Below, piece by piece: positions 14,801-22,179 of a stretch of DNA of 58,860 nucleotides. The notes under the pieces were generated by a model that searched no databases, was not told the origin of the DNA, and was given only the letters and a program-made list of their open reading frames with translations. Positions within the stretch are counted from its first letter, which is position 1. Each line of letters starts with the position of its first letter. The stretch is taken from positions 1 through 58,860 of IMG/VR virus record IMGVR_UViG_3300042308_001616. One strand, written 5' to 3'. A program made the translations under genes and the position numbers. This DNA is from a virus.

Positions 14801-15957
14801 ATATAGAATCTTATGTACTTTTATTAAATGAATATAATACGAGATTACATCACTCACAAACTATTATAGTAGATTCTGCACTCGATACACCAAATTATGC
14901 AGTGGTCAATCTTATAGGAGCAACACCGAGTCTACCTAATAACGAAGTTGCAGTGTGGTCGATCAGTGATAAGTTCATAATATCATTCGATTCCAAACCA
15001 GGACTAACCTATTCGAGAACCATCGAACCGTTAAGTTCAGACTCAAAACAACAAGGAAAGGAATTAAGAATAGATGCCACTGAAGACGGAGGAACTCTTG
15101 ATTTAGTACCTGTAGATGATATACCGAAAAGAACTAACGGAACACAAGAAAGAACATTGACTAAAAATAGATACTCAATGGTAGAATTCAAAATAGTAGA
15201 CAAAAAAACAAAATATGACTACCATCAAAATTCAGAAGGATATATCTTACCATTAATAAACTTCGGTAACCTTAACTTTGTCAATAGAGATGTCACAGAC
15301 TACTATGGTATTAAAACAGAAAAATTACTAAAAACATTATATCTACCTGTGTATGATAATGTAAATCATATTAATACACACGGAAATAAAAAACAGGAGT
15401 TCTTCTTCAATAAACAAAATTTATCACTAAACATTAAAGGAAATGGAGTACTTGGTATAAACAAATCGGAAATTATGTTGGACGACCTTAAAATGTATGA
15501 GGTTAGTAGAGTTCCGTTCTTCCAATACTTTAAATCGATGTCAAAAAGTTCAATAGGAAACATAAACATCACAATACAGATGCCAAAAACAACGGAAAAT
15601 ATTGGAACTGCACCTTTTATAGAATTCTCGGATGTAAATGCAATAGACAACTCAAATTCGGTGAAAAACTTCTTCATATCAAAACTTGTTATAACAAACG
15701 TACCTGTACCTGAGAGTATAAACTGGGAAAAAGACTACATTATATACCGTAGACAAATAAGTGATTTATCAACACCAGAATATTACTACGATAGTAATCT
15801 AAGTTCGTTAAAAGATAGTTCTGGTTATATAATAATTAAAGATAATGACAATACAACGATTGTTTCGGAAGATGTTTTGGGATCGATAGATGCAGAGATT
15901 GCGGCCTCTCAGGGTAATACACCTACTGACCTTAATAATAATAATAAATCAGAGTGA
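8845..15957 (+). CDS. Giant structural protein, 2,370 residues, with short solenoid patches
   Basis: It starts MGMKDYLYLEADGTVKSEL twenty bases after the previous gene. Most of the chain is Tyr-, Asn- and Lys-rich beta-type sequence that I cannot assign. Two patches of the [WF]-x-x-G-x repeat occur, near residues 1532-1549 (GIWESGVWNSGW) and 1649-1695 (WLDGVFLNGYFRGIWNDG), linking it to its upstream neighbour and to the protein at 49493-56044. The C-terminus ends in a low-complexity NNNNKSE tail. No enzyme motif was found. A large virion component such as a fibre or baseplate-associated adhesin is the likeliest reading. Its stop is 21 bases from the convergent DnaJ-like gene with no clear terminator between. 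Confidence 0.83.
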   Translation: MGMKDYLYLEADGTVKSELEDLYVGDRYLSYEIYDYKVSWGGLANLSHTWWLAYQTGRTKLSGEANVKAIPGKVIYERIISVTSKPVTDPVKYKSFDNNTVKVDTIEFNFGIESMVPPTKKKGAGYRTSYLTEYKPGQPTPYGGRLIYNTEGLTLINNSYEQINNTSTSLGGWALYDGPYIENTKFIRERSYNYDNYVDPFFKYYDNDVIDKITVSIRYTIDTNYNAWEKNNYVELGTIEIPTNILSPAQRENLNDTNRRKWDIDRDSFKGYGDNTIKIVSDGCTKEGTFWYLNSESERRPIKWVTNIPEDSRQRIIFSQGINPDTLLKGYIYGEGVLPVYYLTIVPEVDPIEWNSSGGLSNNTNYPSGYIELNLCVPMFSDETWNTPSLNVIYNGIGVGEEVEKNLVSKWVFANKVKRFGREKWWGATKIPMEHDGSINSNIPSYNADTDFTNYKSPAYWIHIARKKYLKDYVNDGKKYINNSFSDKDKLLPSWVFRTYGINTIRDIIPFMDFVTTVEGYKLNRPNKGNKIDYTSYGSQESGYFDGVIKVSANDDIWRLPKGVLKWIVAEFHAWFRPTNQNSTSSVSLDTISILSKAVSYEPIMKRLYTRFRDIPNDTNNKKVEISGGFHYKKIDFYQLADIQPQLDSLISQGKNTEADAIGQEFITKFRGYPKIWTDIPKSYGIVWRRSDQKDWTNVVFSDVNNPLAYSDYVKDLTNYEPIAGGTIKQPTRQDPYTVTPLGYTGLFPIVELIEDRKPTSTAGNWRMFSFEYNLPNLPNGLSYEVYFWVETYKSASLSSDSSELEKLYTKKNKIFFKRVGTIVYGLPTFDKFTKPEPGLKPFWFQMYNGWRINEKPISGQYDPYNDINPDTYGPWDSSTNKYLDDFVYYRSRYSIIPFYSRNNIWDGRGQYNSASNYTFMRLVYFYTQYSNITEEILDFWKRYRPFHYYHNKIYKEGKNYQFRIVVENYFGSLQLKNKDAKTNNGSKQHSWQGIEALGYHTGYKKDPTKDNLTANTDVQSRAYSNDPNEPHKMMFDLFDLWSDEPILPNFLGFYKYYKLDTNGNITYSGSVQENYILSDKDKKFKTEQNAINYKNGVEYDDTSILYKTTKPMKLVTPWSDFIDMNPPIVPVEVFRGGNIVDNANYEDIRKMNLYGYANINSFNEDNIRKNYIAVSASNTFSLSELPTKPLTSFESSYLDPKNPLTITADMYFNGFSKVIITECEWEIQGYATFNMMTATDINDINDSQIIEYKNTGLGLDFFTGRGWHYIDDTLIWVDYVNDYNDKKKNDVSINTNFPMGGSVFDYYSDKKSHIKYLYNNFAAKLITYERYNLTFDYVNSSNFGLTMYIGTELPEEYIYYNNIDSLIESGKIYKVGTLAKSVGTQLGLTQSCEFIGLKGNQYLFFVADTIVNFNKKIGKDVVPGDDWRFALTTTNAGYGFKSGQNYVYKFSNGNKGKSEKCIISISNFKLQYSYEESVNNKQVSVSGNNYSEMGNNMKGLTFSVKFGFGNNVFKNSPNGITTIGTKVGNGSFVSGIWESGVWNSGWRDDITIMDFFAIKEFYGQGGSWYIRISGPSESVDAFSVGDKVSIGNIIAINDNEKRVLLKEYYQINAVDKTIGYVEVKVDYNFPLMRFEMDSDEHRIRISKNIWLDGVFLNGYFRGIWNDGLFNGQPMQTLMDRSNWIDGIFNGGHFYADKKSIIFSYVEKVIKDDVPRLKLKFVENHRLNIDDVISIEFYTTKAVFGGLPVNDSSLGIKLKDDEPYHLGTTVIIDIDDKSITTGIIWNNEYLNITAGKIYTTISTGLIQNFEFYSNNVSNITSLQSLKSERVFQYNSWIDVNYSDQSAVNIGRPLTFVDPVSGRQYPENNLYGYPTTDVITSLSIFRDSYSSYSRRYELGSRYEIFSDLVGSSSNFDEHFESTDTQQGRDMFGKQGWDYKISPSSTKYLKSANAKIDYNNNILELRFVGTEGGNNEYASSFTNGQILNIESYVLLLNEYNTRLHHSQTIIVDSALDTPNYAVVNLIGATPSLPNNEVAVWSISDKFIISFDSKPGLTYSRTIEPLSSDSKQQGKELRIDATEDGGTLDLVPVDDIPKRTNGTQERTLTKNRYSMVEFKIVDKKTKYDYHQNSEGYILPLINFGNLNFVNRDVTDYYGIKTEKLLKTLYLPVYDNVNHINTHGNKKQEFFFNKQNLSLNIKGNGVLGINKSEIMLDDLKMYEVSRVPFFQYFKSMSKSSIGNINITIQMPKTTENIGTAPFIEFSDVNAIDNSNSVKNFFISKLVITNVPVPESINWEKDYIIYRRQISDLSTPEYYYDSNLSSLKDSSGYIIIKDNDNTTIVSEDVLGSIDAEIAASQGNTPTDLNNNNKSE

Positions 15958-15978
15958 TAAAGAGATTTAGTTATTTAG

Positions 15979-16698
15979 TTATTTATACTTATTCTTAAGT
16001 ATTAGATGACCGACTTTACCAGCTTCATTTTTAGATACGTGACCCATAGCATCAACTTTTGTTTGCTCGCCAGTTAATTTTATCTTACTGAGTCGTTGTT
16101 TTCCAAGTATACGTTTATCTCCCTTACAAGACATACATTGATTTAGTCCAACCTTACCCTTTCCGTCACAGAAAGTACAATCAGAACCCATATACTTACC
16201 AGAACCCTCACAGAAGTCACATCCGTCTTCACCATCAAATACCTTCAAAACATTACCATCGTTATCACGTATTACTATTTTAGAAGACATATCCTTACCA
16301 GTACCGTCACAAGACTTACAACGTACCCATCTTTCATACTCAATAGTTCCATCAAAATCTTCATCTACAATAATATAGATATCCAACATCTCATTCTTTT
16401 TAAAACGCTCAAGTCTATCCTTTTCAGTTTGATAATCAACATCAATATTTATATCAAAAAATTCATAATACTCATTATAATTATTACCAAATTTAGACTT
16501 CATATCATAATCCTTTCTTTGTTCAGAACAAAGAACATCATATGCCTCTGTGATTGAATTAAATTTAACAGGATCAACATCTTTGTTTTTATCTGGATGA
16601 TATTCAAATGATAGTTTATAGTATGCTTTTTTAATTTCTTTATCAGTAGATGTATTAGAAATACCTAATATTTGGTAATAGTTTATATTTAAATTCAT
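15979..16698 (-). CDS. dnaJ: DnaJ-like co-chaperone with J domain and zinc repeats
   Basis: 239 residues against about 375 for full DnaJ. A J domain fills residues 5-68 with the Hsp70-activating H34-P-D motif. A cysteine-rich region carries four CxxC pairs: C127-C130 (CKSCDGTG), C160-C163 (CDFCEGSG), C174-C177 (CTFCDGKG) and C188-C191 (CMSCKG), the usual CxxCxGxG zinc centres except that the last is degenerate. The Gly/Phe linker and most of the C-terminal substrate-binding domain are missing. It should recruit host DnaK, perhaps to help fold or assemble the giant virion proteins. It is the last gene of a minus-strand block that includes S21; about 50 bases separate it from rpsU. Confidence 0.93.
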
Positions 16699-16750
16699 AT
16701 TTTATTTGATTTTGATAGTGTCAAATGCACAAAGTGCTTGAAAATTAGTA

Positions 16751-16939
16751 CTAGTCTTCTAATCTATACTTTTTATTGATATATTCCGCACGACCCTGTT
16801 CGGTTCTTCTTTTGTCGGTTGGTTTGATGAACTCTTTTCTCGAACGTAACTCTTTTATCATTTTGGTTTTATCAACCTTTCTTTTTAGTTTCTTCAAAGC
16901 AGCATCAATACCACCTTTTCCTACCTCTACCTGTAACAT
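16751..16939 (-). CDS. rpsU: Ribosomal protein S21 (bS21)
   Basis: 62 residues, close to the usual 60-70. It begins MLQVEVGKGGIDAALKKLKR, with the family pattern V-x-V, D-x-AL, KR and then RSRKEFIKPTDKRR at 32-45, matching the F-x-KPT-x-x-R signature. The Met-Leu start and overall form resemble the Bacteroidota version. S21 binds the 30S platform next to the 3' end of 16S rRNA and affects initiation; phage copies are known in some large and pelagic phages and probably exchange into host ribosomes. Its ATG lies one base after the stop of the upstream gene, so it is in an operon with the 89-residue protein and the oxygenase. Confidence 0.92.
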   Translation of the reverse strand: MLQVEVGKGGIDAALKKLKRKVDKTKMIKELRSRKEFIKPTDKRRTEQGRAEYINKKYRLED

Positions 16940-16940
16940 A

Positions 16941-17210
16941 TTAGTCTATTATTTTGTTTATTTTCATTTCCCTTATCATTGCCTTCTTCTCGTCAGTAGT
17001 CATCTTGGAAAACTTCTGGAAGTCCAAATCAATACCCATAAGTTCGAGTGCAAAGTCAATGTAGTCCTTCACGTCGTCGATGTGACCTCGATCCGTCCAG
17101 GCACCACCATTTGCATAACTTACCAAACAACCACCGGTCGTACTGGTCAATACATTACCACTATGAATGTTGATTCCGTTTAATGTACTCGTTGTGTTCG
17201 TATTTGCCAT
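16941..17210 (-). CDS. Hypothetical protein, 89 residues
   Basis: It starts MANTNTTSTLNGINIHSGN. The first 45 residues are Thr/Gly/Asn-rich and the second half is helical (VKDYIDFALELMGIDLDF, then KMTTDEKKAMIREMKI). No known family. It ends one base before rpsU and begins three bases after the oxygenase stop, so it is co-transcribed with both. Its role is unknown. Confidence 0.8.
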   Translation of the reverse strand: MANTNTTSTLNGINIHSGNVLTSTTGGCLVSYANGGAWTDRGHIDDVKDYIDFALELMGIDLDFQKFSKMTTDEKKAMIREMKINKIID

Positions 17211-17213
17211 AAT

Positions 17214-17825
17214 CTATTTATCTATCTTTGCGTAAAGCCATCCGGTACAAATGTATTTGTTTCCTGACAATGGTGCGTTTCCTCTGTGTACGAAATTCCA
17301 GTTAGAGGGAAATAATACTATCTTGCCCTTCTGTGGTAATATCTTTGTGCCATCTATAAATTCGGTCTCACCGCCCAATTCAACATCATTCAAATACCAA
17401 ATAAATGTCAAAATTCTAGTACCATGTTCGGAAATCGTAAAGTCGTTGTGCCAATTATAGAATCCTGTTCCAATCTCATACTTCTGTATTTGGTAACCAG
17501 TATCCATAAAGTTGAACTTTTTACGAAAAAAATTCATATGAGTATGTATTGACATCAGATGTTTATAATATTCGTCGATGGCAGTACTTAGTTTTTTTTG
17601 TAATATTGAATCCTCATATGACCATTCAGAAAATCTATCTATTGAAAGATCAGTAGTTATCTTCATTTCTGGTTGAAATCCACCACTAGTAACTCCGTCA
17701 TATCGATTTGTGTCCTTTTCGAACTTCTCAATCATATTATCACAAAAATCACTACTAAGAGATTCTTTTTTGGACCAAATAAGTTCCGTATAGTCTAAGT
17801 TTATCTTATTCTGAAAATTCATCAC
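17214..17825 (-). CDS. 2OG-Fe(II) oxygenase, prolyl-4-hydroxylase-like
   Basis: 203 residues. The facial triad is H126-x-D128 (FYNWHNDFT) and H180 (FVHRGN), with K190 a candidate for binding the 2-oxoglutarate carboxylate. The stretch ILTFIWYLNDVELGGETEF is typical of the P4H-like fold. Such enzymes hydroxylate proteins, nucleic acids or small molecules and are frequent in large marine phages. It overlaps the end of the gp46-like gene by 20 bases and precedes a small unknown gene and rpsU; a ribosomal or structural protein substrate is conceivable, but nothing in the sequence shows it. Confidence 0.9.
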   Translation of the reverse strand: MMNFQNKINLDYTELIWSKKESLSSDFCDNMIEKFEKDTNRYDGVTSGGFQPEMKITTDLSIDRFSEWSYEDSILQKKLSTAIDEYYKHLMSIHTHMNFFRKKFNFMDTGYQIQKYEIGTGFYNWHNDFTISEHGTRILTFIWYLNDVELGGETEFIDGTKILPQKGKIVLFPSNWNFVHRGNAPLSGNKYICTGWLYAKIDK

Positions 17826-19542
17826 TAAACTCTAAATTTTGTATAGTATCATAATCAACCTCTTCAATAGAAGAGAACACCTCTTTGTTTATCTTCAATA
17901 TTCTATCGAACATTTCCTGGTTCAGAATAGCATGATGTACTACAAATATATTTATGTTATACTCATTGGCGAATGACTTCAAAAGTGTAAGTATAGAATC
18001 AATACCTTCGATATCAATCGATGAAAACACCTCGTCTAGGAAAAGTATGTTTATGTGTCTCTTCGTGCGTATAAGCTTCAAATAAGCAATAAGTATTGCA
18101 ATGTTAACACGTTTGTTCTCACCAGTCGAAAGAGAATCGCTCTCAATCACCGAACCGAATTGCCTAATCTCTGCGGTGAATGTTTCGTCAAGTCTTACAT
18201 CAAAAGGTATTCCCATCTTACCAATATTCTCTGCGATAAATGCGTTGATTGGTTTGATTATACCGGCAATTATGGATTTCTTTACACCATCCTCTCCAAA
18301 TATCTTATTCAATTCTTTGTAGTATAGTTCTTTATCTTTAGAGTGTGCCATATTGTCCTGACCAGACGAACGTTTCTCTTCTAACTCATCGATGGTCTTC
18401 CTAAATTCTTCTACTTTAGAATCACCAGCACCATCCTGTGCCTGCTTCTTCCTGTTTAAGTCTTCAATCTGTGATTTACAATTTTTCAAAAAGTAGTTCA
18501 TATCATTGAAAGATGTTTGTGTTCCATCTGCAATTTCTCTCAATTTAGTCTGTCTCTCTTTCACCGCTTTGATATTAGACTCAATCTCGGACTTTATACT
18601 TTCGAATCCGGTTCTCTTCTCTACAAGAGACTCTCTCAGAGCATCAAAGTGATCAGAATCAAAATCTGTTCCACAAGTGGGACATTTACCAGAATCGTAG
18701 AGGTCAATCTCACGCTGAACGTTCTTAATGTCGCCCTGAACGATGATATATTGTTTTTTCTCATTCTCTATCTCTTTTGTTAGTATTTCTTCTTTTTCCT
18801 TTATCTTTTCCATTTTCTCTTTAAGAGACTTGTAGTCGTCTTTCTTCGCAGACATCTCTGTCATAAGTCGATCAATTTCGGATTGTATATCCTGTCTGCC
18901 CCTTTCGAGTGCCTTTTCTATGGATCTGTTTATAGAGGCGATTGATTCATCAAGTGTCTTTATCTCTGCATCAAGTGATGCCAATCTTAGTTTGTTACCA
19001 CGATTCAGTTCCTTCAATATATTATTCAATATATTTATTACCTCAAGATTGAAAAGCTTATCTAATAACAATTGTTTCTCTTCATTTGAAAGTGAAATAA
19101 AGTTTTTAAAGTCATTGATTGACATACTGATGAAAGACTTGAAAGTCTCTATATCCATCCCAACATAAGATTCTATTGTTGTATCTATGTTAGCTTTTCC
19201 TGCACGTTCATTGAGTATTCCATTTTCCCAAAGTTCTAGTTTATTTGGTGATATACCCCTTTTAACCTCAACATCAACTCCTCCGGATTTGAACGAAATT
19301 CTATTCAATAATTCTCCATTGATTCGGTTAGGTAGTGTGGAGAGTGTACTCCACTTCTTCTGACGACCACCTCTAACTTTACCGTAGAGTGTATATTCAA
19401 ATGAACTTAAAAAAGAACTCTTACCATTCCCATTGTTTCCGACTAACAATATCAATTCACCTTTCTCGGTGTTTAATTTCACGACTTGTTCGTTATTACC
19501 AAACGATTTGAAGCCTCTTATTCCTATCTCGCTTATTAACAT
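17806..19542 (-). CDS. 46: T4 gp46-like recombination/repair ATPase (SbcC/Rad50 family)
   Basis: 578 residues, close to T4 gp46 (560). Walker A is GNNGNGKSS near residues 36-44; a central coiled coil carries a zinc-hook CPTCG near residue 290; the ABC signature LSTGE and Walker B ILFLDEVF lie near the C-terminus, followed by the switch His in VVHHA. With its nuclease partner gp47 (not in this window) it would resect DNA ends and degrade host DNA to drive recombination-dependent replication. A hairpin with a T-run lies just upstream of its start, so it either has its own promoter or depends on readthrough. Downstream it overlaps the oxygenase gene. Confidence 0.95.
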   Translation of the reverse strand: MLISEIGIRGFKSFGNNEQVVKLNTEKGELILLVGNNGNGKSSFLSSFEYTLYGKVRGGRQKKWSTLSTLPNRINGELLNRISFKSGGVDVEVKRGISPNKLELWENGILNERAGKANIDTTIESYVGMDIETFKSFISMSINDFKNFISLSNEEKQLLLDKLFNLEVINILNNILKELNRGNKLRLASLDAEIKTLDESIASINRSIEKALERGRQDIQSEIDRLMTEMSAKKDDYKSLKEKMEKIKEKEEILTKEIENEKKQYIIVQGDIKNVQREIDLYDSGKCPTCGTDFDSDHFDALRESLVEKRTGFESIKSEIESNIKAVKERQTKLREIADGTQTSFNDMNYFLKNCKSQIEDLNRKKQAQDGAGDSKVEEFRKTIDELEEKRSSGQDNMAHSKDKELYYKELNKIFGEDGVKKSIIAGIIKPINAFIAENIGKMGIPFDVRLDETFTAEIRQFGSVIESDSLSTGENKRVNIAILIAYLKLIRTKRHINILFLDEVFSSIDIEGIDSILTLLKSFANEYNINIFVVHHAILNQEMFDRILKINKEVFSSIEEVDYDTIQNLEFSDEFSE

Positions 19543-19547
19543 AAAAT

Positions 19548-19580
19548 AAAAAAACCTTTTCGATTTATAATCGAAAAGGT
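19548..19580 (-). terminator. Intrinsic terminator between the 127-residue gene and the gp46-like gene
   Basis: A perfect 12-bp stem (19554-19565 with 19569-19580, loop of 3) is followed on the minus strand by a run of seven Ts. It ends the transcript from the upstream block six bases before the gp46-like start codon, so the latter may be fed by readthrough. Confidence 0.85.
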
Positions 19581-19581
19581 C

Positions 19582-19965
19582 TTATAAGTTTGATTGTGTG
19601 CCATAAACTATATTAGACTCGTCTATCCTACCATCAATAAATTTAGACTTTGGTGGTGATAGATATCTCTCAAGGTCGAACTCATCTAAACTATTATATA
19701 GTTCACTGGACGGAACAAGTCTCGAAAATAAGAACTCAAGCATTTCACGATAACCTTCCCACTCCTCGATAGTTGATCCGAGTGCATCCTCTACAGACTC
19801 AGAAACTGTAAGTGCTATAGTATCATTATTGTAAAATAGTACGGCCTCACTATATTCATCATCAATTGAAATATTCAAAAGTACTATAATACCATTACCG
19901 AATCTACCTAAGTAGTCTATTATATCTGCAGTAACCTCCACTTCTAAATTATAGTTTTTCTCCAA
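19582..19965 (-). CDS. Hypothetical protein ending in YGTQSN-L
   Basis: 127 residues, acidic, starting MEKNYNLEVEVTADIIDYLG. No family recognised. Its last residues, VYGTQSNL, repeat the end of the 142-residue protein one kilobase upstream (TYGTQSNE), with different codons for several of the shared residues, so the match is kept at protein level. Its start overlaps the stop of the upstream gene by 17 bases, implying translational coupling, and a strong terminator follows. Confidence 0.8.
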   Translation of the reverse strand: MEKNYNLEVEVTADIIDYLGRFGNGIIVLLNISIDDEYSEAVLFYNNDTIALTVSESVEDALGSTIEEWEGYREMLEFLFSRLVPSSELYNSLDEFDLERYLSPPKSKFIDGRIDESNIVYGTQSNL

Positions 19966-20239: not shown

Positions 20240-20575
20240 TCAGAACCTTTCACCTCTATCGATGTAGTAGGTATTGTTCTCTTCTATTATACTAAGATTA
20301 TCATGTACTTGTTGACAAAGTGTTCTGAAATCGAGTAGGTCTTTCTCTTCTAAGTCAAACCATTCACCACCAATTCTTTTGATACGAAAGTGTCTGTGTA
20401 AATGTGCCTCGATTTTGGTTCCCCATTTTGAGTTGAAAACATCAACAACCTCAAATACAGAAGAATTACCAGTTCTGAATTCAGATATCCTCTTCTCCAC
20501 ATCTCTACGAGTGTGACCTATTTTATAGACTGATTTTCCATTTGTCTCGGATGATATAAGATACACGTTAACCAT
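20240..20575 (-). CDS. T5orf172/GIY-YIG-type nuclease domain protein
   Basis: 111 residues. The opening VYLISSETNGKSVYKIGHT followed by VEKRISEFRTGN matches the T5orf172 branch of the GIY-YIG superfamily; KIEAHLHRHF and GGEWFDL near residues 54-77 supply the later conserved positions. Members are found as stand-alone phage proteins and in homing-type nucleases. There is no separate DNA-binding domain, so it may be stand-alone. It lies directly downstream of two short genes that look like broken pieces of a capsid gene, which makes a past homing or recombination event worth considering. A TATATAAG variant of the recurrent promoter-like motif sits three bases upstream of its ATG. Confidence 0.82.
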   Translation of the reverse strand: MVNVYLISSETNGKSVYKIGHTRRDVEKRISEFRTGNSSVFEVVDVFNSKWGTKIEAHLHRHFRIKRIGGEWFDLEEKDLLDFRTLCQQVHDNLSIIEENNTYYIDRGERF

Positions 20576-20609: not shown

Positions 20610-21038
20610 TTATTCGTTAGATTGTGTTCCGTAAGTGTAATCGAGATAGAATAAATCACCACGGGGTCCAGTATTGAAGTCTGGATGTTCGGTGATTTTC
20701 ATCTCTTCATATTCATTCCCTTCTATCAAAGAATCAATCTTTCGGTTTCGGTTCTCTGCTGCAACCTCTGCTTTTATCGATTCTAGTTCATCAGTCGTGT
20801 TACTATTCATAGGCACGACACTGACAAGGTCCATACCAATAGTCTGTGCTACAACTTTCATTGTCATAGGAAAAACCGATGGAAATGTGGTTTGTTCCAC
20901 CAAGTTGTCTGAAATAGTGGCCTCGTTGTCTGCGTGCATCTGTGCGTATTGTGACATCCAGGCGGCCTTTGATCCGGTCATACCCATTCCGGATATCACG
21001 GATGACCACTTATCAATCATCTTATCTCGTTCTTCCAT
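20610..21038 (-). CDS. Protein resembling the N-terminal arm of the T4-type major capsid protein (gp23)
   Basis: 142 residues. MIDKWSSVI (7-15) resembles the gp23 opening LLNKWKPLL; FPSVFPMTMKVVAQTI and GMDLVSVVPMN (52-78) resemble the gp23 stretch with MVRRAIPNLI and FDICGVQPMN; GPRGDLFYLDYTYG (124-137) resembles SPTGQVFALRAVYG. In gp23 the last two pieces are contiguous; here about 45 charged residues (79-123) separate them. The chain stops at YGTQSNE, where gp23 would continue for several hundred residues. So it cannot be a complete capsid subunit. It may be a remnant, a decoy or an adapted minor head protein. Comparison with gp23 is from memory. It overlaps the preceding 54-residue gene by 22 bases. 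Confidence 0.75.
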   Translation of the reverse strand: MEERDKMIDKWSSVISGMGMTGSKAAWMSQYAQMHADNEATISDNLVEQTTFPSVFPMTMKVVAQTIGMDLVSVVPMNSNTTDELESIKAEVAAENRNRKIDSLIEGNEYEEMKITEHPDFNTGPRGDLFYLDYTYGTQSNE

Positions 21039-21181
21039 AACTCCTCTATTGCGTTTCTACGGTGAACTTTTTTTTCTACTACACCCAACATACTTAGTAT
21101 GTCTGCGTCGATTTGCTTGGCTATTTCCTCTGACAGAAGACGGGATAGCTCGTGTTCGGCATCGATGTGTTCGTTTTCCAT
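21017..21181 (-). CDS. 54-residue protein resembling a middle segment of gp23-type capsid protein
   Basis: ATG at 21181, TGA at 21017-21019. Residues 5-20, HIDAEHELSRLLSEEI, followed by DADIL, closely resemble the gp23 helix HGMDADAELSGILATEI followed by NREVV. Upstream and downstream gp23 sequence is absent. It overlaps the start of the 142-residue gene, which resembles an earlier part of gp23, so the two pieces lie in reversed order relative to the intact capsid gene. The rest (VEKKVHRRNAIEELWKNEIR) is a basic helix. A short helical protein could also match by chance. Confidence 0.65.
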   Translation of the reverse strand: MENEHIDAEHELSRLLSEEIAKQIDADILSMLGVVEKKVHRRNAIEELWKNEIR

Positions 21182-21225: not shown

Positions 21226-22179
21226 CTATTTTAGCTTTACGTGAATATAGAGCCATTGTGATAAAGCCTTGACACTTATCAGAACTTTATCAGACCATTT
21301 CTTAGTAGATACCCAAGAAACAAAGTTTGATTTAAGGTTTTCAAACTCACCAGAATCCAAACTTCCGTTGTCCCATTTACCAACACCTTGATATCCAAAA
21401 CTTAGTATCTTATCGGTCAATGTAATTGGCATAGTTGTGTCATATTGACCAGGTGAATATTCTATCATATCATTCTTTATAGAACAAAGTGTAGATATAT
21501 CAGTATTAGTGAGATTCACTAATTCCTTTTTTAGTGAGAATGCAGATTTCAAATCAAGAGTAGTTATCCACTTTATTGCCGAAGTATTTACTTTAAAACT
21601 ACCAAATGATGTAAGTACGTCCTCGGACATAGTTCCAAATTCGATACTCGAGTCACACTTCAATCCAAAGTAAAGTATTGTTTCGTTGTTTGTATAATCT
21701 ACATTATCTACAAACCTAGATAGTGAAGAATAGCGAGCAATAACTGCCTTCACTGTATTAGTCTCAATATGTGAAGAACGATAAAAAAGTAAAAAGTCCT
21801 TAGGAGAAATAGAAAAGTCTGGAACAACGTCTTTCTGACCAAGTGCGGTCATAACTTTTAGAAAACTTGTAAATGCACCTTTTCCACCAGGTGTAAGATC
21901 TACGGCTTCTGTTATTGGTTCTGTCTCGGTAGAGAATTTAACAACCGGTTCTTTCTCACGCACACCATTAGTCTGGTAATCTTTAACCAATTTCTCTATC
22001 TCTCTTTTATCCCAGTCACCTAGAAGACCTACCGCATTTGAAAGACTTATATCTGGTGGTGTTTCACCGATAAACCTATCGACTATGTTTCTTACATACT
22101 CATCGTCTTTGTAGAGTGGTAGTAGCCAGTCACCTAATTTATCTTCGAATATGAACTGATTGTATTTCTTTATTATCAT
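21226..22179 (-). CDS. Hypothetical protein with capsid-targeting-like N-terminus, 317 residues
   Basis: The N-terminus MIIKKYNQFIFED carries Y-x-Q-F-I-x-E at the same spacing as the T4 internal-protein targeting peptide (Y-Q-E-F-I-A-E, cut after Glu by the prohead protease gp21). If the same rule holds, cutting would fall after E12. The remaining chain has no fold I recognise; GKWDNGSLDSGEFENL near residue 272 looks like one isolated copy of the Trp-x-x-Gly repeat. It is upstream of the gp23-like fragments and downstream of the collagen-bearing structural gene. An injected or head-packaged protein is inferred. Confidence 0.8.
   Translation of the reverse strand: MIIKKYNQFIFEDKLGDWLLPLYKDDEYVRNIVDRFIGETPPDISLSNAVGLLGDWDKREIEKLVKDYQTNGVREKEPVVKFSTETEPITEAVDLTPGGKGAFTSFLKVMTALGQKDVVPDFSISPKDFLLFYRSSHIETNTVKAVIARYSSLSRFVDNVDYTNNETILYFGLKCDSSIEFGTMSEDVLTSFGSFKVNTSAIKWITTLDLKSAFSLKKELVNLTNTDISTLCSIKNDMIEYSPGQYDTTMPITLTDKILSFGYQGVGKWDNGSLDSGEFENLKSNFVSWVSTKKWSDKVLISVKALSQWLYIHVKLK

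Follow-up and report, generated by a model that had tools for sequence, protein, structure and literature searches.

Two overlapping small genes of a large phage, each predicted to correspond to a single element of the T4-type capsid fold, belong to separate conserved families

Two overlapping small genes and their relationship to the T4-type capsid protein

The window analyzed here is the stretch of 58,860 nucleotides that forms the first part of the 248,751-base virus record IMGVR_UViG_3300042308_001616. On its minus strand lie two short, intact ORFs, which specify proteins of 54 and 142 amino acids (aa) and overlap as a preliminary description of the DNA had reported. The features of the locus, named after the sequence comparisons given below, are:

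21226 to 22179, minus strand: 317-aa gene, conserved upstream neighbor of the 142-aa gene
21017 to 21181, minus strand: 54-aa gene, alpha element (spine helix) of a T4/HK97-type capsid protein, followed by a polar tail
20610 to 21038, minus strand: 142-aa gene, N element of the capsid protein (pro-region, N-arm helix and first strands), with a 45-aa module within it
21017 to 21038, minus strand: overlap of the 54-aa and 142-aa genes, 22 nt, in different frames
20910 to 21029, minus strand: codons 4-43 of the 142-aa gene, matching positions 8-48 of the capsid profile
20793 to 20879, minus strand: codons 54-82 of the 142-aa gene, N-arm helix and strand, matching positions 89-117 of the capsid profile
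20670 to 20804, minus strand: codons 79-123 of the 142-aa gene, 45-residue insert with the tag-like NRNRKIDSLI, delimited in a three-sequence alignment of the family
20613 to 20669, minus strand: codons 124-142 of the 142-aa gene, capsid N-element strand GPRGDLFYLDYTYG, which resumes past the insert
20240 to 20575, minus strand: T5orf172/MUG113 (GIY-YIG-like) gene, conserved downstream neighbor of the 142-aa gene (PF13455, E=8.2e-18)

A ribosome-binding-like GAGGAG is situated 2 nt upstream of the start of the 142-aa gene; nothing similar to it precedes the start of the 54-aa gene, the polar tail of which contains a tag-like HRRNAIEELW. Elsewhere in the window, a terminator-like inverted repeat (23 nt, with a 3-nt loop) occupies the intergenic positions 19543-19591. 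No tRNA genes were found in the window; the sampled stretch L072 has an array of 18 such genes (15836-18549).

The 54-aa protein, previously described as a middle piece of gp23, matches the Pfam Gp23 family (PF07068) with E=2.9e-5 (24.1 bits, profile positions 162-197) and the PHROG 138 major head protein with E=3.9e-5. The 142-aa protein, previously described as an N-terminal piece of gp23, is weakly matched in these general libraries (Pfam Gp23, E=0.012, 15.5 bits; PHROG 138, E=0.0031) but strongly, with E=2e-13, by a seven-sequence profile built from six capsid proteins of the phage's clade and that of PAU. This match falls into two stretches, profile positions 8-48 and 89-117, the first of which presumably corresponds to the pro-domain that is removed in T4 gp23. 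The curated PF07068 cut-off of 24.4 bits is reached by neither protein; nevertheless, the homology of both to the gp23 family or its near relatives is significant, by the Pfam match for the shorter one and by the related-capsid profile for the longer one. The clade capsid proteins themselves recover the solved T4 gp23 with E=2.3e-10, and the gp23 segments that the preliminary description had cited (GMDADAELSGILATEI and KWKPLLE) are indeed present in the aligned gp23 sequence. Searched against solved structures, an alignment of the N-piece (as we term the 142-aa family) retrieved gp23 with just E=1.1, behind unrelated proteins of which the best was ATP synthase subunit d (E=0.0065), and the best match of the alignment of the spine piece (the 54-aa family) was gp24, with a non-significant E=0.033.

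The intact capsid gene, expected elsewhere in the genome, lies at about 95.6-97.4 kb of the record and specifies 570 aa. Neither small ORF combines the N, alpha and beta elements in one chain; each has a single element. As compared to T4 gp23 and gp24 (PF07068), the small proteins share the pro-region and N-arm as well as the spine-helix sequence, with profile matches that are weak in the case of gp24. Unlike them, they are too short for a shell subunit, are encoded in the order alpha then N and include an extra module. PMC3863775 distinguishes N, alpha and beta elements within the HK97-like fold, and the pieces described here roughly follow these divisions.

AlphaFold2 models the 142-aa protein with a mean pLDDT of 61.5, with helices at residues 3-17, 23-45 and 55-66, a strand at 71-76, a helix at 81-106 (pLDDT 70-78 in 10-residue blocks) and a strand at 110-122 that belong to the insert, and a further strand at 128-139. 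In this weak model, the insert would be accommodated between strands. A model of an intact capsid protein from a relative (mean pLDDT 53.5) was too weak for a fold search.

Two other origins of the arrangement were considered and rejected. An intron- or intein-split capsid gene does not account for the reversed order, the 22-nt overlap and the different affinities of the pieces, and no Rfam family matched the window at gathering scores when an intron was sought. A flanking DNA repeat was suspected from a YGTQSN ending shared with a 127-aa ORF, but the pattern occurs once in the window.

Two families with separate genomic contexts

Relatives of the N-piece, insert included, stand alone in LR745206 (50% identity) and LR756502 (42%), megaphages of 635 and 642 kb in which they occupy the same neighborhood as in the window. 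The existence of these stand-alone relatives, aligned over 95-97% of the protein, indicates that the capsid match of the 142-aa protein is not due to chance. In the window, LR745206 and LR756502, the gene order runs from the 317-aa gene through one other gene, the N-piece and sometimes a small ORF to the T5orf172 gene, and continues with genes for about 90 aa and about 105-127 aa to an SbcC-like gene, before which other ORFs intervene in LR745206 and LR756502. Relatives of the 317-aa gene occupy the same place in the stretches L004 and L005 and in the ORF lists of L237 and L238, and in all four the T5orf172 relatives were recognized by eye in the ORF lists. Two IMG/VR contigs, G004 (insert present) and G013 (insert absent), likewise place the N-piece beside the 317-aa relative, T5orf172 and ~90-aa genes; the segments examined span 3.2-3.4 kb, so that an SbcC-like gene would be beyond view. 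The N-piece thereby retains an intact frame and its position in five phages. Scans of viral contigs with the 142-aa protein and with its alignment returned no relatives; those reported here come from tblastn and whole-record searches.

The spine piece also stands alone in LR745206 and LR756502, about 149 and 150 kb away from the N-piece, and again in the stretches L123, L124, L126, L220 and L221, in more than one type of neighborhood. Among the sequences compared, the two pieces are adjacent in the window record alone, the nearest counterpart being G032, where a spine piece adjoins a beta-plus-N piece. Among 39 larger contigs (37 picked for their capsid gene and two for the spine piece), loci outside the capsid gene at E<=0.001 were N-piece-like in four (G004, G013, G026 and G032) and of the spine region in nine (G008, G009, G012, G014, G016, G019, G036, G038 and G039), three of which (G036, G038 and G039) entered through the spine search itself, while G009 and G012 are one virus represented twice, identical across the compared locus. 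As these contigs are fragments, the absence of matches in the remainder says little. We conclude from these comparisons that each ORF represents a conserved family of its own, predicted to correspond to one structural element of the capsid protein. The preliminary description was accordingly sound in identifying gp23-type pieces, an insert and live-looking genes, but its suggestion that both could be relics of capsid-gene breakage mostly does not hold for families that are conserved so far apart. Its other suggestion, assembly modulators or decoys, may apply.

As to the placement of phages of this size, PMC7162821 assigns its largest genomes to the Mahaphage clade, for which Bacteroidetes hosts are predicted, and includes Lak phages there as well (see also PMC9723777).

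A clade-wide complement of capsid pieces

To count such pieces at E<=0.01, six whole clade records were searched with a 31-sequence capsid profile. This yielded 21 loci outside the capsid gene: one in the window record, four in LR745206, five in LR756502, six in LR756501, two in LR756500 and three in LR756504. The same profile and threshold gave none in the comparison phages Lak-B1, PTm1, PAU, Mel-JY01 and immuto. The Pfam Gp23 profile at E<=0.02 found 10 such loci in the five named clade records and again none in the five comparators. Four of the 21 loci read through a stop, two of these spanning two ORFs or an ORF end, and four match nothing of the capsid profile but its N-terminal to Gly-rich stretch. 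No second full-length gp23-family match emerged from the whole-record search, but longer partial ones exist, such as a 482-aa ORF in LR756501.

Portal pieces outside the portal gene were found at six loci of the whole clade records, at the following positions, one of them reading through three stops:

LR756501 (W03): 142170, 48184, 15187 and 668995
LR756502 (W02): 317086
W04: 256142

SbcC left no pieces in the same six records; the capsid profile, with 31 rows against three each for the portal and SbcC profiles, is the richer of these probes. In the sampled stretches there are 19 capsid pieces against a maximum of two for any of 21 other large families, a comparison that is biased because the stretches were partly chosen for capsid pieces; hence, the whole-record capsid, portal and SbcC searches are the fairer test. 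Sheath-like stretches were also noticed by eye (L005 8474-8671 and L061 4040-4180).

The pieces extend to the remainder of the fold, with further single-element genes covering the C-terminal (beta) strands, and in LR745206 and LR756502 the N, alpha and beta elements each exist as separate genes. These two phages share six piece families (157/165, 61/53, 67/70, 268/250, 243/261 and 75/61 aa), grouped by where they align to the profile or lie in the genome. The 61/53-aa family was assigned to the strand preceding the spine by inspection and because both members are flanked by two longer genes; its 61-aa member gave no meaningful BLAST match. Several loci combine elements. G032 repeats the alpha-before-N order of the window: its alpha piece, of 109 aa, shares 17 nt with a gene for 250 aa in which beta is followed by N. 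In G008 (L220 1468-2072), three ORFs that overlap or lie close together follow the native element order. The first (67 aa) is a spine piece, the second (59 aa) looks by eye like the strand that precedes the beta element, and the third (93 aa) covers the C-strand; all three have a tag-like RKxxIxxI. Finally, a 196-aa protein of LR756501 keeps the native succession of elements from pro-region through N-arm and spine to C-strand.

An insert module and a shared C-terminal tag

The reported splitting of two adjacent gp23 motifs by the insert is borne out by the 108-aa N-piece relative of G013 (L238 1396-1722), in which the insert is absent, both motifs are adjacent and the chain ends in the basic tag TRKRKINNIFKVNE. 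All three aligned N-piece sequences have NR(D/N)xKIDS in the insert. A 65-aa piece in W05 aligns through this module and stops there, and in G026 and G032 it is placed, as judged by eye, a few residues ahead of its position in the window protein. G032 has four open-frame copies in or beside its head-protein pieces (the fourth recognized by eye) and a fifth broken by stops. From these comparisons, the insert is a recurring module holding the core of a C-terminal tag common to many unrelated proteins; because this core is common to both, we infer that the long module and the short tag are of one origin. A peptide like SEYIAENLDKNIAY stands beside the tag module in G032, and about ten 42-bp repeats specifying SEYIAENLDKNIAY-like sequences occur in a 699-aa protein adjoining the capsid gene (L003 9445-11544, minus strand).

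The tag was defined as R-[D/E/N..]-x-K-[IL]-x-x-[ILV]-[LIF] within the last 25 residues, the script allowing more letters at positions 2, 4 and 6. As the pattern was drawn up after examples had been viewed, shuffles, internal positions, N-termini and other phages served as controls. The counted ORFs are mechanical picks of at least 40 aa, so some are not genes. The tag occurs in 72 of 607 sampled ORFs of LR745206 (shuffled mean 0.99, maximum 5; stretches L059-L061, L073 and L080-L091) and in 36 of 338 of LR756502 (shuffled mean 0.64, maximum 3; L074, L075 and L092-L099). It is less frequent in the sampled ORFs of LR756504 (9/164), the window record (4/191) and LR756501 (3/263), and was found in none of 165 from LR756500 nor in 50-kb samples of Lak (0/105), PTm1 (0/83) and PAU (0/80). 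At the N-terminus, it was matched by one of 542 LR745206 ORFs of at least 60 aa. A stricter DNA-level pattern gave 16 hits against 7 reversed in the whole LR745206 record and 3 against 4 in that of LR756502, and the strict form is therefore not enriched everywhere.

Outside the tag, the tagged proteins are largely unrelated, with no homologous pair at E<=1e-3 among the 72 of LR745206 and two within LR756502. The tag is kept in 9 of 12 detected orthologues between these phages. Searches with 68 tagged proteins produced five family-member matches to three Pfam families, three of them to Gp23, and single matches to 10 PHROGs. Counted anywhere in the chain, the pattern is present in 10 of 25 pieces against 168 of 1378 other short ORFs (one-sided Fisher p=5e-4), a figure that is indicative only, given the selection of the stretches. 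A DNA-level element behind the tag was rejected: some ATA/TTA excess is seen at positions 8 and 9, but at most positions codon use follows that of the genome, and we therefore read the tag as a peptide-level feature. LR756501 uses a different motif at the C-terminus, DPYGEE, which 17 of its 263 sampled ORFs share, 16 of them as DPYGEExW (stretches L076, L077, L078, L104, L105 and L109). These include two capsid pieces; several stand in tandem and some are perhaps paralogous.

Short peptides shared by many unrelated proteins are familiar from encapsulin cargo peptides and T4 capsid-targeting sequences. As in such capsid cargo and targeting systems, LR745206 and LR756502 have a terminal peptide common to non-homologous proteins; the tag differs from them in sequence and in standing also inside capsid pieces. 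Separately, many N-termini in the window record and its relatives read MKxIKKYxxFxNE (e.g., L003 3549-3788) in a rough pattern count, which we take to be reminiscent of the T4 capsid-targeting sequences. A 94-aa ORF at L072 9593-9877, on the minus strand, joins a capsid-targeting-like start to a stretch like capsid residues 45-86.

Possible functions of the capsid pieces

The reading that we favor, if tentatively and at somewhat less than even odds, is that these are accessory small proteins that mimic single capsid elements toward a partner. The pieces would dock where the intact element does, on the capsid protein, the scaffold or another capsid partner, and docking would alter assembly or load something at the capsid. 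The tag may bind a common partner. Since its pro-region is most like the capsid protein of its own clade, the N-piece most likely joins the phage's own growing head, a leaning that we hold with low confidence, whereas other capsids may be the target of the spine piece. The role may thus lie in the assembly of the own head, in action against rival capsids or at host capsid sensors. Speaking against this reading are the scarcity of tags in the window record (4 of 191 ORFs), the low confidence of the structure models, the broken-looking copies and the foreign affinity of the window's spine piece.

A broader version, which we regard as a good deal less probable, has the tag serve as a peptide address. 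Each lineage would use a tag of its own (RDxKIxxIL in LR745206 and LR756502, DPYGEExW in LR756501) to mark up to about one-tenth of the ORFs, mostly small ones, for one partner, and capsid mimics with the same tag would couple this partner to capsids, either to bring cargo into the own head or to disable rival heads or host sensors.

Of comparable, rather low, probability is interference, wherein dominant-negative capsid elements would be built into the lattices of T4-type phages or satellites infecting the same cell and stop these from assembling. This could explain why, among the nine capsid proteins compared, the spine piece of the window scores higher with those of Microcystis phage Mel-JY01 (33.5 bits) and Flavobacterium phage immuto (32.7) than with its own (18.9), a preference shared by the spine pieces of LR745206, LR756502, G039 and G019. 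In tblastn searches, too, the matches of the spine piece that follow its relatives include the capsid genes of Mel-JY01 and immuto. Being nearer to foreign capsid proteins, it does not fit a role in the own shell, and the presence of portal pieces is also consistent with interference. However, the spine piece of G032 leans the other way, with 36.2 bits for the W04 capsid protein and 32.7 for that of the window record against 27.3 for immuto, and a foreign-looking affinity of an old paralogue may have other causes. The N-piece likewise matches its own clade best in the pro-region and arm, its first half scoring 49.7 bits with the own capsid protein, while its last strand does best with immuto (25.4).

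Equally doubtful is the possibility that the pieces are decoys, occupying defense sensors of capsid or portal without switching them on. Portal proteins trigger bacterial defense. Capsid proteins are documented triggers of CapRel and Thoeris, and gp23 triggers Lit through its Gol peptide (PMC9712102 and PMC11312562). In keeping with decoys, the pieces found in searches that covered capsid, portal and SbcC derive from head proteins and none from SbcC. The core of the N-piece (profile 89-117) aligns near gp23 94-122, in one case with E=1.1, which presumably is about the position of Gol. The pieces thus resemble Gol in being short capsid segments, from an overlapping gp23 region, of a kind that can act alone on a host protein, but Gol is part of a full capsid protein, whereas the pieces are genes of their own. 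Against a decoy role, a mimic of a trigger could equally set the sensor off, and a decoy should resemble the own capsid protein, which the spine piece does not.

We consider it improbable that the pieces make up a split capsid protein, in which separate N, alpha and beta chains would jointly fold to give a vertex protein or a minor protein of the shell. The separate genes for all three elements in LR745206 and LR756502, the combined loci of G032 and G008, the 196-aa protein of LR756501 and the lack of a second full-length gp23-family match would fit such a protein. Against it, the A-domain and E-loop are inconsistently covered, most genes of the named phages lie at great distances from one another, the chains are broken up by tags, relatives differ in where the elements begin and end, and the longer partial matches make a second, diverged capsid protein possible. 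The permuted HK97-like fold of BPP-1 (PMC3863775) shows roughly the same N, alpha and beta divisions by our own comparison, but there a single N-beta-alpha chain forms the shell, in contrast to the separate genes described here and to the alpha then beta-N of G032. The same source argues that the N element cannot be moved, yet in G032 it stands last.

Selection appears to act on both families. Pairwise dN/dS values of the N-piece are 0.41/1.62 (LR745206-LR756502), 0.41/1.31 (LR745206-G004) and 0.36/1.00 (LR756502-G004), i.e., ratios of 0.26-0.36, and those of the spine piece are 0.37/0.88, 0.43/0.76 and 0.53/1.61; for both, these are the unsaturated pairs, those with the window record being saturated. 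The capsid gene has dN of 0.15-0.19 over dS of 0.80-1.01; the pieces change faster. The loss of frame and constraint expected of a decayed pseudogene is not seen in the relatives compared, which are intact, and the genes look alive, as had been supposed from their frames. That the pieces are chance leftovers of capsid-gene duplication and breakage is thus also improbable: their number, variable boundaries and faster change, the four loci with stops and the broken-looking copies (a stop before the G026 N-piece and the stop-bearing extra module of G032) favor it, but the intact frames, kept position, conserved insert, ribosome-binding-like site and dN/dS below 1, together with the absence of SbcC pieces and the at most two pieces left by other large families in the (biased) sampled stretches, speak against it.

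Among the papers listed by full-text literature searches of incomplete coverage, none describes sets of capsid-element genes in its title or in the opening of its abstract. If single-element mimicry is borne out, some of the largest known phages would maintain groups of small genes whose limits follow the elements of the HK97 fold. This would offer a starting point for the many uncharacterized small proteins of huge phages, and would allow capsid pieces to be tested as assembly modulators, weapons or immune decoys.
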